Assembly (NCBI RefSeq): GCF_002240355.1
Contig: NZ_CP016353.1
Location: 868,001-932,000, forward strand
DNA: 64,000 nt
Direction: 5' to 3'
DNA from: Prauserella marina
Lineage (GTDB): Bacteria > Actinomycetota > Actinomycetes > Mycobacteriales > Pseudonocardiaceae
The position numbers and the translations under genes were made by a program. This document shows positions 9,944 through 17,211 of the stretch, piece after piece (position 1 is the first letter of the stretch; every line of letters begins with the position of its first letter). The notes under the pieces are model-generated. The model ran no database searches. It was not told the origin of the DNA and saw nothing but the letters and a program-made list of their open reading frames with translations.

Positions 9944-11110
9944 GTGAGCGACGGTCCTGGGCTCTACCAACTCCCGGAAGAGCATGAGGAACTGCGCGCC
10001 GCGGTGCGCGCGCTGGCCGAGAAGGAAATCGCGCCCTACGCCGCTGAGGTGGACGAGCAGGAGCGCTATCCGGCCGAGGCGAGGGACGCGCTCAGCAAGG
10101 CCGGTTTCAACGCGGTGCACATCCCCGAGGAGTACGGCGGCCAGGGTGCGGACGCCATCGCGGCCTGCATCGTCATCGAGGAGGTCGCCCGAGTCGACGC
10201 GTCGGCATCGCTGATCCCCGCCGTCAACAAGCTGGGGACCCAGCCCATCCTGCTTTCGGCGTCCGAGGAGCTGAAGAAGCAGGTGCTGCCTTCGATCGCG
10301 GCCGGTGAGGTGTCCGCTTCCTACGCGCTGTCGGAACGCGAGGCCGGTTCGGACACCGCGTCGATGCGCACCAGGGCGAAGCGCGACGGCGACACCTGGG
10401 TGCTCGACGGTACGAAGTGCTGGATCACCAACGCGGGCGAGTCCAGCTGGTACACGGTCATGGCGGTGACCGACCCCGACGCGGCCAAGAAGTCCAACGG
10501 CATCTCCGCTTTCGTCGTGCACGCCGACGATCCCGGTTTTTCCATTGGCCCCAAGGAGCGCAAGCTCGGCATCAAGGGGTCGCCGACGAGGGAGATCTAC
10601 TTCGAGAACTGCGTGATCCCGGCCGACCGGATCATCGGCGAGCCGGGGACCGGGCTCAAGACCGCGCTGCGCACGCTCGACCACACGAGGCCGACGATCG
10701 GCGCGCAGGCACTCGGTATCGCGCAGGGAGCGCTTGAGGCCGCGATCGGCTACGTCAAGGAGCGCAAGCAGTTCGGCAAGGCGATCGGTGATTTCCAGGG
10801 CGTGCAGTTCATGCTCGCCGACATGGGCACCAAGATCGAGGCCGCGCGCAACCTGGTGTACGCCTCGGCCGCGGCGACGGAGCGCGGCGACGCGCGCGCG
10901 GGCTTCATCGCCAGCGCCGCGAAGACCTACGCCTCCGACATCGCGATGGAGGTGACCACCGACGCGGTGCAGCTCTTCGGTGGCGCGGGCTACACGAGGG
11001 ACTTCCCGGTCGAGCGCATGATGCGCGACGCCAAGATCACGCAGATCTACGAAGGCACGAACCAGATCCAGCGCATGGTGATGGCAAGGGCACTGCTGAA
11101 GGGGAAGTAG
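9944..11110 (+). CDS. fadE25: Acyl-CoA dehydrogenase, FadE25-like
   Basis: A 388-residue flavoprotein that introduces the alpha-beta double bond into acyl-CoA. The sequence closely follows remembered M. tuberculosis FadE25, including IPEEYGGQGAD, ASYALSEREAGSD and GIKGSPTREIYFENC. The C-terminal IYEGTNQIQRMVMARALL holds the catalytic glutamate of the short-chain and medium-chain groups. GTG 9944 with AAAGG upstream gives the family length; a reading frame opening far upstream at 9095 lies antisense to the ligase gene. The purK-purE neighbourhood matches Rv3274c-Rv3276c. Confidence 0.95.
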   Translation: MSDGPGLYQLPEEHEELRAAVRALAEKEIAPYAAEVDEQERYPAEARDALSKAGFNAVHIPEEYGGQGADAIAACIVIEEVARVDASASLIPAVNKLGTQPILLSASEELKKQVLPSIAAGEVSASYALSEREAGSDTASMRTRAKRDGDTWVLDGTKCWITNAGESSWYTVMAVTDPDAAKKSNGISAFVVHADDPGFSIGPKERKLGIKGSPTREIYFENCVIPADRIIGEPGTGLKTALRTLDHTRPTIGAQALGIAQGALEAAIGYVKERKQFGKAIGDFQGVQFMLADMGTKIEAARNLVYASAAATERGDARAGFIASAAKTYASDIAMEVTTDAVQLFGGAGYTRDFPVERMMRDAKITQIYEGTNQIQRMVMARALLKGK

Positions 11111-11127
11111 CCCGCCCCTTGTTCGCG

Positions 11128-11154
11128 GGTGGTCCGGCATGTGGCCGGGCCACC
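11128..11154 (+). terminator. GC-rich hairpin after fadE25
   Basis: An 11-bp stem (one T-G wobble) with a 5-base loop starts 17 bases after the fadE25 stop. No T-run follows, which is common for actinomycete terminators. It lies between convergent genes. Confidence 0.55.
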
Positions 11155-11240
11155 GCCGGGTTCAATGCGGTGGTCATCCGATCTAGGCGCGGTGCGAAGA
11201 ACCGGCCAGGTGAAGGCTACGGCGAGCGCGACGCTTGTCG

Positions 11241-11906
11241 TCAGTGGTAGTCGGTTGTGTCCCAGCACCTGCTGAATTCGGACTGGCCCAGGCGGGTGTT
11301 CCAGATCCGCTTGGTCGATGGCCGAATCTCCGGCGACTTGTATCGTCGAGCGGGATTCCACCAGGAACAAGTTTCGACCTTGGCGGTCCCCAGGGCGAGC
11401 GCTTCGTCCAGAGCTGGTTCAAGGTCAGTATCTTGAGACGCCAAGATCACTACGTCGACCGCCGGATTGAGGGCCTCGCGGAAGAGCGCGAGTGCACACA
11501 GCACGTCGACGCCCTTCTCGGATCTGCTCTTGACGATATAGTCACCATTCGAGCCGACAACCTTCTTTCCGTTCTCATCCCGCTCGTAGTCGTACTTCAG
11601 CGGGCGAAGGTGGACCGCGACTCTGGGGTCTCGCTCCCAATGTGCTTTCTGGGCTTGGTTCCGCGCGTATGCTTTTTGATCATGCTTGGCGGACGGCAAT
11701 CCGCGATACACGAGGACTTTTCGAAGCTCGGCGTGATCCATGCCGTCGCGTTGGCGCTGATTCCGGGTCTGAATCAGTTGATTGGCGAAGTGCAGGGGAT
11801 CGACCAAAGCTTCATGTGCTGGACCGAACCGTGTCGAGTCGAAGAGCCCGTGACCGGTGAGGTGAAGGTTCTGATAGTCGATGATCACCGATGCGCGCAG
11901 GGGCAT
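11241..11906 (-). CDS. NYN-domain (PIN-like) putative ribonuclease
   Basis: A 221-residue protein with a NYN fold, related to PIN and FLAP nucleases. Acidic residues expected for metal binding are present: D10 in IIDYQNL, D134 in EKGVDVLCALAL, and D159/D161 in ASQDTDLEPAL. Such proteins cut RNA or tRNA, but the target is not visible here. GC content is visibly lower and codon use less biased than in neighbouring genes, which suggests later acquisition. ATG 11906 has only a weak ribosome site. The 5' region is unusual: a strong promoter is followed within a few bases by a terminator hairpin ending 19 bases before the start codon. Confidence 0.85.
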   Translation of the reverse strand: MPLRASVIIDYQNLHLTGHGLFDSTRFGPAHEALVDPLHFANQLIQTRNQRQRDGMDHAELRKVLVYRGLPSAKHDQKAYARNQAQKAHWERDPRVAVHLRPLKYDYERDENGKKVVGSNGDYIVKSRSEKGVDVLCALALFREALNPAVDVVILASQDTDLEPALDEALALGTAKVETCSWWNPARRYKSPEIRPSTKRIWNTRLGQSEFSRCWDTTDYH

Positions 11907-11925
11907 GGTAGAAGCCTACGGCATT

Positions 11926-11959
11926 AAAAAAGCCCCACCAGTCCCGGAGGACGGTGGGG
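11926..11959 (-). terminator. UNCG-capped intrinsic terminator in the NYN leader
   Basis: On the minus strand CCCCACC-GUCC pairs with GGAC-U-GGUGGGG (7 + 4 bp, one bulged U) around a UCCG tetraloop closed by C-G, followed by C and six T residues (bases 11931-11926). It lies between promoter and start codon of the NYN gene, so it would act as attenuator or produce a short RNA of about 40 bases. Confidence 0.75.
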
Positions 11960-11971
11960 AGCTATGAGCCC

Positions 11972-12000
11972 ATAGTAGCCGTGTCCTTCGCGTACTTCAA
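11972..12000 (-). promoter_or_regulatory. Housekeeping-type promoter of the NYN gene
   Basis: On the minus strand TTGAAG (12000-11995) and TACTAT (11977-11972) are separated by exactly 17 bases, a close match to the sigma-70 consensus and rare in such GC-rich DNA. The predicted start point near 11965 is only about six bases before the terminator stem. Confidence 0.7.
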
Positions 12001-12040
12001 CCTGGGGATCACAGGTCCGGTGTGCTCGTCGTGAGAACGG

Positions 12041-12916
12041 TCAGTTCTTCCTGCCGACTCCGCACAGTCCGCCGATCGCCGCCGGGTCGGCGGGTACCGG
12101 CTCGCTCGGCCGCCATTCCGGTATCCACACCAGTCCTGGGTCGACGAGGGCGAAGTCGCCGAAAAGGTCCGTGATCTCCTCCCTGGCGCGCAGATGCACC
12201 CTGTGGGTGGAGCGCTTGTAGTTGTCGATCACGGTGCCCGCGCTTTCTCGAAGTTCGTGGTGATCGGGCGCGACGCTTCCGTGCGACAGCACCAGCAGAC
12301 TTCCCCGTGGTAGCCGGTCGCGATAGTCGGCGAGCATGGCTTCCGGTTGCTTCTCCGGCGGCATGAGATGCAGGAGCGCGACGGTCAGCAGGCAGATCGG
12401 CTCGTCAGGATTCAGCGGCGTGGTGTCCATGATGGACTCCCACAGTTCCGCTCCGTCGAAGTAGTCGCCGACGACCGCGAAGTGGCGCGCGGGATCCGCG
12501 GTGTCCTCAAGCAGGATCTGCGAGTGCGCGTGCGCGATCGGCTCGTTGTCGACGTAGGCGACGAGGGCTTCGCCTCGTGCGACTTCGTCGGCGATCTCGT
12601 GCACGTTGCCCTGTGTCGGCAGGCCACTGCCGATGTCGACGAACTGACGCACACCCGTCTCGACTGCGTACCGCACCGCCCTGCCGAGGAACGCGCGATT
12701 CGCTCGCGCGAACTCGCCGAGGCCGGGCGAGGTCGAGATTTGCTGATCGGCGAACTCGCGGTCGATCGCGTAGTTGTTGGTTCTGCCGAGCAGGTAGTCG
12801 TAGATGCGACCGGCGCTTGGTCGTTCCAGGTCCACTGGCCCATCGTCGTCCTTCCCCAGGTGCACGTCGGCCCACGATCCCAGTGTTCCGGCTTTACCGC
12901 ACGAGGCTGACCACAT
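12041..12916 (-). CDS. SAM-dependent methyltransferase, DUF574 family
   Basis: A 291-residue protein of the actinomycete-specific S-adenosyl methyltransferase family PF04672. Early family signature RPSAGRIYDYLLG is followed by NNYAIDREFADQ, the glycine-rich SAM loop FVDIGSGLPTQGN (about residues 92-104), and VAYVDNEPIAHAHSQ, where the acidic residue contacts the ribose. The substrate of this large family is unknown. It stands alone, divergent from the DoxX gene. An internal start (about 15-20 residues later) is possible because the first residues are not family-like. Confidence 0.85.
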   Translation of the reverse strand: MWSASCGKAGTLGSWADVHLGKDDDGPVDLERPSAGRIYDYLLGRTNNYAIDREFADQQISTSPGLGEFARANRAFLGRAVRYAVETGVRQFVDIGSGLPTQGNVHEIADEVARGEALVAYVDNEPIAHAHSQILLEDTADPARHFAVVGDYFDGAELWESIMDTTPLNPDEPICLLTVALLHLMPPEKQPEAMLADYRDRLPRGSLLVLSHGSVAPDHHELRESAGTVIDNYKRSTHRVHLRAREEITDLFGDFALVDPGLVWIPEWRPSEPVPADPAAIGGLCGVGRKN

Positions 12917-13008
12917 CTCGGATCGGTGGGTTTCTTTCTCTCCCTTTTATGCCCGTTCGTTACGATCATCGCCGTAGTTGAAAGTTCATCTATGACGAGG
13001 TGATGCAC

Positions 13009-13452
13009 ATGTACGAGCGGGTGCGGGACGTGACCGCGCTGGCAGGACGGGTCGCCGTCGCCGTGGTGTTCCTGGCTCACGGACTCGACAAGTGGAACGC
13101 GGGGCTCGGCGCGACCACGGACATGGTCGAGGCCATGGGAATCCCGTTGCCGACGCTGAGCGCGATCTTCCTGATAGCCGTCGAGGTGATCGGCTCCATC
13201 GCCTTCATCCTCGGCATCGCGCTGCCACTCGTCGGCATCGGCTATGCCGTCGCGGGACTCGGGGCGCTCTTCTTCGTCCACCTCGACGCGGGGCTCACCG
13301 GGGCAGGCGGCTACGAACTGGTGCTCGTCCTCGCGCTCGCCGGGCTGGCGCTGGGTTTCAACGGCGGCAGGCTCTCGCTCGATCACCTGCTTTTCGGGCG
13401 CCGAAAAGCCGCCGCGCGGGAACAGTCCGTCGCCGAGGCAGTCCGCGCGTAG
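13009..13452 (+). CDS. DoxX-family membrane protein
   Basis: A 147-residue protein with four predicted transmembrane helices. The first, with the motif VVFLAHGLDKW, is typical of DoxX/DoxD-like small membrane proteins linked to quinone or thiol redox. The third region has the usual FFVHLDAGL. The C-terminus is charged. ATG 13009 follows GAGG at a good distance; GTG 13000 and ATG 13003 are in frame but too close to it. No partner gene is adjacent, so a specific role (such as in thiosulfate or organic hydroperoxide defence) is not assigned. Confidence 0.88.
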   Translation: MYERVRDVTALAGRVAVAVVFLAHGLDKWNAGLGATTDMVEAMGIPLPTLSAIFLIAVEVIGSIAFILGIALPLVGIGYAVAGLGALFFVHLDAGLTGAGGYELVLVLALAGLALGFNGGRLSLDHLLFGRRKAAAREQSVAEAVRA

Positions 13453-14213: not shown

Positions 14214-15605
14214 TCAGTTGACGCACGCCGCCGCCCGTGGCGCGATACCGCCTCCCGGCGCGGAGCCGCCGCCACTGGGCTGTTCCCCTTCGCTTTCGAT
14301 GATGTCCTTCACGAAGGCGCGCACGGCTTCCTTGTCGACGGAGACGATGCTCTGCCCGTCATCGCTGCGCGCGGCGACCTCGACGACGGGAATGGTGACG
14401 AATTCGATGTCGCCGCTCGCGATGCCCTTCGCCTGCTCGGCGAACCCGAGCAGATCGAGGTCCGGGTCGAGGACGAGCGAACGGCGGAGCGTCTCGGTGA
14501 GCTGATCGAGCCTGCCTGGCTCGGTGAGCGTCCCCGCCGAGAGCACGCTGTCGAGCGCGGAAGCCAGAAACGCCTGCTGGCGCACGATGCGGTCGAGATC
14601 CCCTCGCGGCAGGTTCTTGCGCTGGCGCACGAACGACAGCGCCTCCCCGCCGGACACGACCTGCGGGCCCGCCGCGAAGTTCGCGCCGGAGTCCTTGTCG
14701 TAGGTCGCGTTGTTCAGGCAGACCTCGACCCCGCCCAGTGCTTCGGTGAGCAGGTAGAAGCCGAGGAGGTTGACCTCCGCGTAGTGGTCGATGTGAATGC
14801 GGGTGAAGTCCTGCACCGTCTTGACCAGTGCGCGCCTGCCCGCCTGATCGGATTCCTTCTCGACGTCGGCAGCCGCGTGTCCGCCCTCTGCCCACAGTCG
14901 CGCGCTCACCGACTCCTTGGCCGCGCCGTAGGCGGAGTTGATCTTGCCTTCGCCGCCCTGCGGGACGTCGACCCAGGCGTCGCGGGGAATCGAGATCGCT
15001 CTTGGCGACCCGCCGTCCTTGGGGATGCGCATGATGATCAAGGTGTCGGTGCTGATGCCCTGCTTGTCTTCCGTGCGCAGCTGCTTGAGCATGTCGAGCG
15101 GCAGGGCGTTGCCCTCCATGTCGGTCCGCGAGTCGGTGCCGACGAGCAGGATGTCGGTGGCTCCGTCGTCCTGCGGTGGCGGGGGAGTTCCTTCCTCGCC
15201 ACCGCTGTTCTGCTGGAGCGCGTCGGTGGTCTGGACACTGTCCTGGAGCCCGTCGAGCACGGTGTAGGCGTAGCCGGTGGCGACGAGGGCCAGCGCGGAG
15301 AGCAGCACGACGGCCGACCTGGCCGCGATCCGCCATGGGGACCGTTTGCGCCGTGCGGGAGTGGCTTGACGGTGCCGCCCACCGGTGGTCCCGGCCTCGT
15401 CCGGCTCCTCGGGGTCCTCGGGGTCGTCCAGCCCCTCCGTCTCGCCGGTGCTGTCGGTGCTGTCGGTGTTGTTGGCGGTGCCGCCCTCGGTGTCATCCGG
15501 GCCGTCGGTGTCGTTGTGCTCCGCGTCGTTTTCCGCGTCGCCGACGTGACCGGCGTCGGCCTCGCCCGCTTCACCCGCCCCGCCGGGCTTCTCGCCGTCG
15601 TCCAC
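14214..15605 (-). CDS. LCP (LytR-CpsA-Psr) family cell-wall ligase
   Basis: A 463-residue type II membrane protein. The long acidic cytoplasmic N-terminus (about residues 1-75) is rich in D, E, T and N and of low complexity; one membrane helix follows near 95-117 and then the LCP domain (about 150-320). Conserved residues appear in ILLVGTDSRTD, TLIIMRIPKDGG, ISIPRDAWVDVP and ALSFVRQRKNLPRGDLDR. LCP enzymes transfer a polyprenyl-pyrophosphate glycan, such as arabinogalactan in this group, onto peptidoglycan outside the cell. GTG 15605 has GGGAGGGAG upstream. It is tandem with a second LCP gene 43 bases upstream. Confidence 0.92.
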   Translation of the reverse strand: MDDGEKPGGAGEAGEADAGHVGDAENDAEHNDTDGPDDTEGGTANNTDSTDSTGETEGLDDPEDPEEPDEAGTTGGRHRQATPARRKRSPWRIAARSAVVLLSALALVATGYAYTVLDGLQDSVQTTDALQQNSGGEEGTPPPPQDDGATDILLVGTDSRTDMEGNALPLDMLKQLRTEDKQGISTDTLIIMRIPKDGGSPRAISIPRDAWVDVPQGGEGKINSAYGAAKESVSARLWAEGGHAAADVEKESDQAGRRALVKTVQDFTRIHIDHYAEVNLLGFYLLTEALGGVEVCLNNATYDKDSGANFAAGPQVVSGGEALSFVRQRKNLPRGDLDRIVRQQAFLASALDSVLSAGTLTEPGRLDQLTETLRRSLVLDPDLDLLGFAEQAKGIASGDIEFVTIPVVEVAARSDDGQSIVSVDKEAVRAFVKDIIESEGEQPSGGGSAPGGGIAPRAAACVN

Positions 15606-15648
15606 GCTGGCTCCCTCCCAACCCCGCGTGTACCTCCGAGCGACCAGC

Positions 15649-17211
15649 TTAATTGACGCAGGGCACTCCACCGGCGGTTATGGGCTGATCAGCCGGGGTG
15701 CCGGTCTCGTTTTCGGTCGTCGGCGGCTGGCGAGGCGGGGCCTCCGCCGCGAAGCTCGACGGCGGCACGGCGCTCTCGGGGAGTTCGAATCCGGCGCCGA
15801 GGGTCACCGTCAGCGACCCCGGTGTCACCGTGCTGTCCGGCACGGCCTCCACGTCGGTTCCCAATGCTTGCCTGAGTGCTTCGACGCCGTCCTCGTCGCC
15901 GGGAGCGTAGAGCACGACGGTACCGCTCTGACTGTCCACTGTGGCCGAACTGTCGCCGAGGAACCCGATGCCGCTGAGGTGTTGTCTGATGGCGGGGCCG
16001 AGGTTTGCTCCGGAGCCGTCGTAGATGTCCACTGTGTACTGCCCGGCGTTGTCGATCACGGGTGGCGCGCCCGGCTCGGCCGAACTGTCCTTTTCCTCGT
16101 CGTCGAGCGAGCCGTCCGAGGTCAGGTCGTCGACGAAAGCCCGCACCGAAGGTACGTCGACCTCGACAACGGACGCCGCGCCCACCTGTCCGAGCCCGAG
16201 TGTCGGAATCGTGTGGAACTCCACCTGGCCGCCGGAAAGGCCACGCATCTGGGCCGCGAACTCCAGCAGATCCCAGTCCTGGGAAAGTACGACGGATTTC
16301 TGCACGGCCTCGATGACGTCGTTGATCTTGCTGGGGCTGAGCAGGATGTCGGGAGAGAGCATCTTGCGAACCAGGCCGGAAAGAAAGGCCTGCTGCCGTG
16401 CGATGCGGTCGAGGTCGCCGTTTTCGAGACCGTAGCGTTGTCGCACGAAGGCCAGCGCCTGAACGCCTTCCAGCGTCTGCCTTCCCTCGGGGAGGTTGAC
16501 TCCGGACTTGGTTTCCCTCACCGCGGAGTTGAGGCACACCTCGACGCCGCCAAGCGCCTTGGTGACCTCGTAGAAGCTCGCGAGGTTGACCTCGGCGTAG
16601 CGGTCGATCATCCCCGGCTTGCCGATGAACTGCTCGATGGTGGCGATGAGGTTCTTGCGGCCGGCGACCTTCGCCTTCTCGTCGACGGCTTCGAGGTCGG
16701 TCTCTCCCTCGTTCCGCAACGTGGAGAACGTGTCGTTGTAGGCGTAGACGAAGGCGCTGTTGAGTTTGTGATTGCCGTAGCCGCCCGCGATCTCCACCCA
16801 GGAGTCGCGAGGGAACGAGATGGCGACCGCGCGCGTGCCGTCCTGCGGGATGTGCACGAGGATCATCGTGTCGGTCTGCCGCTCGCCGGTCGCCTCGCCC
16901 GCGTGCAGGTGGTCGAGCACTTCTTGCGGCAGCGGGTCACCCTTCGCGTCGGTGCGGCTGTCCTGCCCGACGAGAAGGATGTCGATCGCGCCGTCGAGCG
17001 GGACGGCAGCTGGTGCGCCGTCGAAGACGTCCGTGGTGGTGACGCCGGAGTTGACACCCCTGACGAACTGCCACCCGTACCAGGTCAACGCCAGTACGGT
17101 CACCGAGATGAGTGAGAGAATGACTTTGCCGCTCACCATGGCGAAAACGCCGACCCGGTGCCCCCGGCGCGACGATGGCCGCTCGACCGGTCCGTTCGGC
17201 CAGCCGGTCAC
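15649..17211 (-). CDS. LCP family protein with C-terminal LytR_C domain
   Basis: A 520-residue LCP protein. One membrane helix (about residues 27-50) anchors it; the LCP domain follows (about 75-330) with ILLVGQDSRTD, TMILVHIPQDG, ISFPRDSWVEI and ALAFVRQRYGLENGDLDR. A C-terminal LytR_C domain (about 395-480) and a proline/threonine-rich tail follow. It corresponds to M. tuberculosis Rv3267, an arabinogalactan-peptidoglycan ligase, in matching order with rmlD and TIGR03089. GTG 17211 has GGGAGGAG upstream. It is divergent from rmlB across 146 bases. Confidence 0.93.
   Translation of the reverse strand: MTGWPNGPVERPSSRRGHRVGVFAMVSGKVILSLISVTVLALTWYGWQFVRGVNSGVTTTDVFDGAPAAVPLDGAIDILLVGQDSRTDAKGDPLPQEVLDHLHAGEATGERQTDTMILVHIPQDGTRAVAISFPRDSWVEIAGGYGNHKLNSAFVYAYNDTFSTLRNEGETDLEAVDEKAKVAGRKNLIATIEQFIGKPGMIDRYAEVNLASFYEVTKALGGVEVCLNSAVRETKSGVNLPEGRQTLEGVQALAFVRQRYGLENGDLDRIARQQAFLSGLVRKMLSPDILLSPSKINDVIEAVQKSVVLSQDWDLLEFAAQMRGLSGGQVEFHTIPTLGLGQVGAASVVEVDVPSVRAFVDDLTSDGSLDDEEKDSSAEPGAPPVIDNAGQYTVDIYDGSGANLGPAIRQHLSGIGFLGDSSATVDSQSGTVVLYAPGDEDGVEALRQALGTDVEAVPDSTVTPGSLTVTLGAGFELPESAVPPSSFAAEAPPRQPPTTENETGTPADQPITAGGVPCVN

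Follow-up and report, generated by a model that had tools for sequence, protein, structure and literature searches.

A short bulged hairpin precedes the gene for an NYN-domain ribonuclease in a 64,000-nt stretch of Prauserella marina DNA (contig NZ_CP016353.1, positions 868,001–932,000; hereafter the window), and it is almost certainly a genuine RNA element that has been conserved in association with NYN genes of this kind. The same hairpin also occurs on its own in actinophages. Hairpin and gene may constitute a two-part module in which the RNA would control the NYN nuclease and the phage copies would act as mimics; judged from the sequences and by analogy, this reading, in which the chain from binding through inhibition to defence is inferred, has in our estimate about an even chance of being correct.

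The hairpin element and its NYN gene

The NYN gene (PIN-like, 221 aa) lies on the minus strand at 11241–11906, with its ATG at 11906. An earlier note on this DNA had described ahead of it a promoter, TTGAAG-17-TACTAT, which is present on the minus strand between 12000 and 11972 (−35 element TTGAAG at 11995–12000, 17-nt spacer, −10 element TACTAT at 11972–11977). The predicted small RNA or leader of about 40 nt (11926–11965, minus strand), the start of which is placed 7 nt past the −10 element from promoter spacing and fold, would open with a conserved single-stranded 5′ element, UAGCU (11960–11964), and continue into a bulged hairpin (11933–11959) consisting of a 7-bp outer stem (11959–11953 with 11939–11933), a 4-bp inner stem (11952–11949 with 11944–11941) and a UCCG tetraloop (11948–11945). 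A single C past the outer stem is followed by a U-tract of six T residues (11926–11931), the tail of an intrinsic terminator, and a gap of 19 nt leads to the NYN ATG. The stems, loop, T residues and gap agree with the geometry given in the earlier note; the unpaired U at 11940, which bulges between the two stems and turned out to be the hallmark of the element, goes unmentioned there. The 41-nt RNA folds at −21.8 kcal/mol (z −3.9; one of 200 shuffled sequences was equally good), a 69-nt version has a z of −3.0, and the window RNA scores 68.1 bits with model R1, of which it is itself a member. Taken alone, the site is near chance level, as a scan of the 5–20 kb region found 12 terminator-like sites versus 7.6 ± 3.4 in shuffled sequence, and a promoter scan of that region gave no sites at the 9-of-12 threshold, the window promoter reaching 8 by hand count. 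It is the conservation of the leader that lifts the site above chance.

Among the 27 NYN loci that were found by protein similarity and read with upstream sequence on the same contig, the hairpin lies directly upstream of the gene in 25 (28 of the 30 in the whole list), those of L002, L004, L018, L019, L173 and L176 being counted via model R1. Leader conservation in related NYN genes, which the earlier note had set beforehand as the test of its idea, was thus confirmed. All four NYN genes found by protein in viral contigs are preceded by the hairpin. Eight of the 11 plasmid NYN records were fetched with upstream sequence, and in the other three (a second Clavibacter record and two from R. pyridinivorans) hairpin matches adjoin the NYN coordinates; a family genome in which NYN gene and hairpin lie on two contig ends (G094; L011 and L030) stands outside the 27. 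A DNA search of 249 family genomes with the 134-bp intergenic region of the window yielded six matches besides the window at E<1e-5, all of them in the hairpin part and five of them NYN loci found independently. Compared with the window over the 32-position segment running from the 5′ element through the stem, the remaining 23 NYN-linked hairpins in alignment A2 agree at 25 to 32 positions, and plasmid gene tables show that the hairpin is kept with NYN where the upstream genes differ. The 5′ element, as T[A/T][A/G/T][C/T]T, is present in all but one of the 24 NYN-linked hairpins and in 18 of the 28 standalone ones, and the U-tract (at least four T in the 8 nt past the stem) in 24 of 24 versus 19 of 28, so that it is missing from nine standalone copies. 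No match to the hairpin was found among 4227 Rfam models up to E = 1 (window positions 11000–13200). Locus L006 carries two tandem hairpins with an identical core (2725–2769 and 2857–2901), about 130 bp apart, and one NYN gene.

The structure is also reflected in the pattern of sequence change. For 24 NYN-linked hairpins from 23 loci (A3), 99.6% of cells are paired and five pairs have changed on both sides (16 cells), whereas only 28–63% of cells are paired in a control in which partners were slid by 1–3 columns; for the 31 rows of A5, which were not picked by exact core, 97.7% are paired and seven pairs have changed on both sides (27 cells). Compensatory changes in homologous leader hairpins, for which the earlier note had called, were accordingly found, the outer-stem pairs covarying. 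Loop and inner stem differ in L002, L004, L018, L173 and L176 (in length for L004, L173 and L176, the last two being checked by folding), with the outer stem and the bulged U retained, and the bulge base is A in L017, while L019 is rearranged. A U occupies the bulge in 23 of the 24 NYN-linked hairpins and in every one of the 28 standalone copies, U being part of the search pattern for 24 of the latter. Exact-core scans, with inner pairs and bulge fixed and the outer stem free, supplied 24 of the 28 standalone A2 rows and the NYN-linked rows L069, L143 and L194, and model R1 includes phage rows. When the bulge base was left free in the search pattern, it was U in 12 of 13 full hairpins among the matches listed (120 viral stretches). 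Judging from the alignments, both sequence and shape are conserved around the bulge and the outer stem is freer to change provided that it stays paired, a pattern that we read as the mark of an RNA recognised by a protein rather than of a bare terminator.

The leaders share their promoter spacing. A [TC]ANNNT box ending 11–13 nt before the stem is found in 20 of 30 NYN leaders (29 loci; shuffled mean 2.6, maximum 9), and in 11 of these leaders a TTGACA-like hexamer (at least four of six positions) begins exactly 41 nt ahead of the stem, with a further five, two and one at 42, 43 and 44 nt. Transcription would thus be expected to begin at the U[A/U]GCU element or immediately beside it and to give an RNA of about 40 nt.

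The only Pfam match of the window protein is NYN (PF01936), at 24.4 bits against a cut-off of 24.2. D10, N13, D134, D159 and D161 are invariant across 23 family proteins, and the structure predicted for the window protein (pLDDT 93.6) has as its closest solved folds 2qip (VPA0982; E 1.6e-6) and then the Marf1 NYN domain (E 5e-3); a sequence-profile search of solved structures returned 2qip only, weakly (E 0.038). Pfam cut-off, acidic residues and the fold match of the model together place the protein in the NYN ribonuclease family, in which a CRISPR-associated member with like aspartates is described as a Mn-dependent endoribonuclease (PMC11346440). The PADLOC profile HEC-09, a candidate defence model, matches 20 of the 23 family members at E up to 1e-3, weakly (best 2e-8), and the window protein at 7e-5 across 52 residues only. 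PHROGs gave two families with two and one weak matches among the 23 NYN members, neither of them matching the window protein. The gene is lower in G+C (58.7%) than the gene upstream (65.6%) and the window (68.8%), as the earlier note had observed.

Relatives of the NYN protein are rare and scattered, and the 22 that were compared share 35–67% protein identity with it. Of the four genomes of the genus, only that of the window has the gene; with a cut-off of E up to 1e-20, relatives are present in six of 249 family genomes and eight of 394 class genomes (own genome counted), and elsewhere in seven contigs of genome_contigs, 11 plasmid records and four viral contigs. Named phages have none at E up to 1e-5. 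On a Dietzia plasmid (L173:5296–8651), the NYN gene lies near an annotated EcoRI-type methyltransferase, a DUF262 protein and a Shedu nuclease.

Standalone hairpins in actinophages and hairpins on chromosomes

Searches of named phages with BLAST located copies of the hairpin in the Microbacterium phages Hortus1, OlinDD, Tandem, Alleb and Footloose, in Clavibacter phage CN1A, in the Mycobacterium phages Krypton555, Finnry and prophiGD102-1, in the Gordonia phages Holliday, Birdsong and GAL1 and, more weakly, in the Mycobacterium phages Myrna and Phabba; weak rows from phages of Stenotrophomonas, Enterococcus and Escherichia, from haloviruses and from others were set aside. Model R1, applied to nine of the named genomes, scored Hortus1, Footloose, prophiGD102-1, Krypton555 and CN1A at 51.8–59.6 bits, each of them being a model row or sharing its sequence with one; Holliday, GAL1, Myrna and Phabba lie outside the model and scored 35.6–40 bits. 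In IMG/VR, 52 contigs contain the 17-mer core, 41 with a full outer stem and 11 with two to three chance pairs, and none in between. Within the sequence at hand, 38 of the 41 full hairpins are standalone and three stand before an NYN gene; these contigs are redundant, the 41 representing 29 distinct upstream sequences, and two standalone contigs (L180 and L198) end less than 100 nt from the hairpin. Control patterns produced a full hairpin in one of eight cases with an inner pair swapped and in two of 48 with another bulge base, compared with 41 of 52 for the real core, which excludes a general liking for such bulged hairpins. The outer stems of some standalone copies are unlike that of the window, all of them being paired (CCCGACC/GGTCGGG, GAGCGCC/GGCGCTC, CTATCC/GGATAG and CCAGGUC/GGCCUGG), and we take these copies to be maintained as structures in phages. 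The NYN leader of a Clavibacter plasmid (L169:3998–4042) and the Clavibacter phage CN1A (L167:1491–1535) have in common an odd U·C mismatch at the second inner pair, perhaps a case of matched mimicry; the same mismatch is present in Footloose.

Ten proteins neighbouring phage copies were compared with PHROGs and seven gave matches: two portal proteins, two terminase large subunits, one major head protein, one exonuclease and one protein hit best by families without an assigned function, an FtsK-like match ranking lower. The hairpin is annotated as a terminator in CN1A and overlaps a hypothetical gene in Hortus1.

Several copies lie close to tRNA genes. Five of 29 standalone copies are within 300 bp of one (random placement within those short stretches would give 1.8), and among the named phages a distance of up to about 300 bp was found in four groups (Hortus1, Footloose, CN1A and Myrna/Phabba), prophiGD102-1, Krypton555, Holliday and GAL1 having no annotated tRNA in the 2.6–3 kb inspected. 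In Myrna (L413:1494–1538) and Phabba (L414:1485–1529), the hairpin sits inside a tRNA array and abuts the 5′ end of tRNA-Thr, a position in which a terminator role would make little sense; in Myrna the apparent start of a broken tRNA, identified by eye, precedes it. RNA ligase and polynucleotide kinase form the tRNA repair pair of phage T4. Both enzymes are encoded by CN1A (L416:15180–17124) and Hortus1 (L417:37419–39900), the hairpins of which lie near tRNA genes, and neither appears in the annotation of Footloose. One proposal is that phages carry tRNAs as a counter to tRNA-cutting defences (PMC10264068), and tRNA may be the target of the NYN nuclease, although the evidence is suggestive only.

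The chromosomes present the opposite picture. All 38 chromosomal R1 hits of at least 45 bits were examined (31 from a first search and seven more from a second), and an NYN gene or fragment lies downstream in 32. A Fisher test of hits with and without NYN, 27:5 for the first 32 chromosomal hits examined versus 3:38 for phages, gives p = 8e-12, for rows that are not independent. Hits below 45 bits (17 of 48 rows in the first search and five of 13 in the second) were excluded from this count; of ten such loci inspected (L242–L246 and L254–L258), L242, L243 and L246 have NYN right downstream, and the remaining seven, several of which look like chance, have no NYN match. In the genomes of family f20, many hairpins stand before shortened or missing NYN genes (L223, L224, L225, L227, L229–L233, L238–L240, L420 and L423) and are themselves intact or nearly so, and the RNA seems to outlive the nuclease there.

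The proposed module and its alternatives

Type III toxin–antitoxin systems are laid out as a promoter, a short RNA, a Rho-independent terminator and a ribonuclease gene (PMC5086642). This order of parts, which the NYN locus resembles, and the existence of phage copies recalling pseudo-ToxI and the RNA anti-CRISPRs (Racrs) led us to propose that the RNA is an inhibitor or controller of the nuclease and that the phage copies are mimics. The short promoter would make an RNA of about 40 nt with a 5′ U[A/U]GCU element, a hairpin with a single bulged U and a U-tract end, and occasional read-through of the terminator would yield the mRNA of the NYN ribonuclease. The RNA would be a specific ligand of the NYN protein, as its linkage to the gene suggests, and in excess it would keep the nuclease inactive or limit its synthesis in a ToxI/ToxN-like manner. 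The nuclease would probably be a defence or addiction effector, and actinophages would carry the nuclease-free RNA as a mimic blocking it. The linkage to NYN, the covariation, the contrast between chromosomes and phages, the pattern controls, the constant promoter spacing, the active-site residues, the HEC-09 matches, the tRNA and repair genes near or in some hairpin phages and the precedent of pseudo-ToxI are counted in favour of this proposal. A bolder version, in which a hitherto undescribed actinobacterial immune module consists of an NYN nuclease held by its leader-derived RNA of about 40 nt and many unrelated actinophages have evolved mimics, some of them in tRNA arrays because the nuclease attacks tRNA, appears to us somewhat less probable than its opposite.

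A number of observations weigh against the proposal. Six of the 38 chromosomal hits have no detectable NYN gene (three of them keep an apparent NYN start, by eye), and two Mycolicibacterium plasmids with NYN proteins about 40% identical (L174 and L175) have no hairpin. Five of the 31 A5 rows have a broken second inner pair (U-A), with no compensatory changes, and viral contigs often contain bulge-less hairpins that share the inner stem (44 of 128 among the matches listed), the hairpin shape without the bulge being uninformative. Only six of 29 standalone copies have a TANNNT box at the shared position, and the phage copies might serve the phage otherwise. The link to tRNA genes, judged by a local control only, was not established as a general rule, the PADLOC and Pfam scores are weak, and the window neighbours seen by Pfam include no defence genes, in the absence of a scan aimed at defence. 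Finally, the support comes from sequence comparison, with expression, binding, toxicity and effect on phages all being predicted.

Of the alternatives, autoregulation alone survives best, although we consider it unlikely. The hairpin would then be an attenuator or an NYN site in the mRNA leader of the gene itself, bound or cut by NYN to set its level, and the occurrence of this strong hairpin in phages would be unrelated. The NYN-type RNase Regnase-1 targets stem-loops, some of them in its own mRNA, and both the U-tract, which all 24 NYN-linked hairpins have and only 19 of 28 standalone ones, and the start codon soon after it fit such a role. However, standalone copies retain the bulge and the core with outer stems that are varied yet paired, the pattern controls set them apart from ordinary hairpins, and nine of 28 lack a U-tract. 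The earlier note had offered either attenuation or an RNA of about 40 bases that may be the target or the regulator of the nuclease. Terminator-based attenuation of the NYN gene is plausible and compatible with the present data, and the existence of standalone phage copies, some of them without a U-tract, suggests that the hairpin is not only an attenuator; together with the constant promoter spacing, these copies support a discrete small RNA.

Somewhat less likely again is a trigger model, according to which many actinophages make the hairpin for reasons of their own and NYN senses infection by it, with the copy in the leader serving as a sensor or titration switch that ties the level of NYN to phage RNA. 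A lone hairpin at unrelated positions in diverse tailed phages, tRNA arrays included, fits this model, but among the few neighbours examined no common gene or position suggests a core phage function, the recognised part is kept in spite of an outer stem that can vary freely, and a trigger should be lost under selection. We regard as improbable the binding of the hairpin by a host factor (an RNase, a ribosomal protein or an antitermination factor) for stability or processing of short RNAs in phages and at the NYN gene: the location of some phage copies in stable-RNA clusters and the conserved single-stranded 5′ element would suit it, yet outside phages the hairpin is mostly found with NYN, and a general factor should have other sites. 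That the hairpin is simply the terminator of Methyltransf_19, the gene upstream, or arose by chance would agree with its shape and place and with the terminator-like sites of the region being at about chance number, but both readings were rejected and are highly improbable, because the hairpin tracks NYN and not Methyltransf_19 across chromosomes and plasmids, stays with it under other upstream genes, keeps the bulged U and core where the U-tract is absent, and stands out in the pattern controls.

Genomic setting and relation to known systems

The window neighbours recognised by Pfam are an AMP-binding enzyme, Methyltransf_19 and DoxX. The Methyltransf_19 gene (12041–12916, minus strand), upstream of the NYN gene, has eight matches in its own genome at E up to 1e-40, itself counted. 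Gene 9971–11110 (an acyl-CoA dehydrogenase by eye) is common to congeners, and similarity ends right after it in three of three, so the ends of the element could not be set. Two adjoining minus-strand genes at 14214–17211, judged by eye from a motif, are presumably of LytR-CpsA-Psr type.

In addition to its order of parts, the NYN locus resembles the type III systems ToxIN, CptIN and TenpIN in its occurrence on both plasmids and chromosomes and in the presence of antitoxin-like RNA in phages. In those systems, however, the RNA consists of tandem pseudoknot repeats, whereas the NYN locus has one bulged hairpin with its own terminator; the window has a single hairpin, and only L006, among the NYN loci read, has two. 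The covariation supports a plain bulged hairpin, although the 5′ UAGCU element could pair elsewhere. The toxins of those systems belong to the ToxN, CptN and TenpN families, the nuclease of the NYN locus is NYN/PIN-like, and the fold of ToxN differs from that of NYN. With another nuclease family and no repeats, the NYN locus is, on sequence grounds, not a member of the ToxIN, CptIN or TenpIN families.

Phage phiTE provides a precedent for the proposed mimicry, as its pseudo-ToxI, a short phage version of the non-coding host RNA that inhibits a ribonuclease, acts against ToxIN, with experimental proof in this one phage (PMC3475682). Both cases involve a phage-borne copy of a host RNA tied to a ribonuclease, but the present one comprises 41 hairpins from viral contigs, with 29 different sequences upstream of them, known from sequence alone. 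Racrs are solitary phage copies of a structured RNA used by a host immune nuclease system (PMC10651486), and the RNA they mimic comes from the CRISPR array rather than from an NYN locus. The CRISPR-associated NYN of Bacteroides fragilis, MARF1 and VPA0982 have the NYN fold and acidic active site in common with the window protein but form a separate sequence family (2qip, E 0.038), and the part of PMC11346440 available to us describes no hairpin leader for them. Titles and abstract openings of the papers listed from the open-licence PMC literature contained no description of the hairpin–NYN element, no paper there joined type III toxin–antitoxin systems with NYN, and 'NYN' is absent from the main text of PMC10482375. 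We also know of no RNA part of HEC-09, which PADLOC lists without a description.

If the proposal is correct, the few known RNA-controlled nucleases would be joined by one with a new fold and a minimal RNA of one hairpin, in a phylum with poorly mapped defences. The parts, an RNA of 40 nt and a protein of 221 aa, are small, and the predictions are open to direct test. The recurrent hairpin of actinophages would then be explained as a counter-defence RNA.
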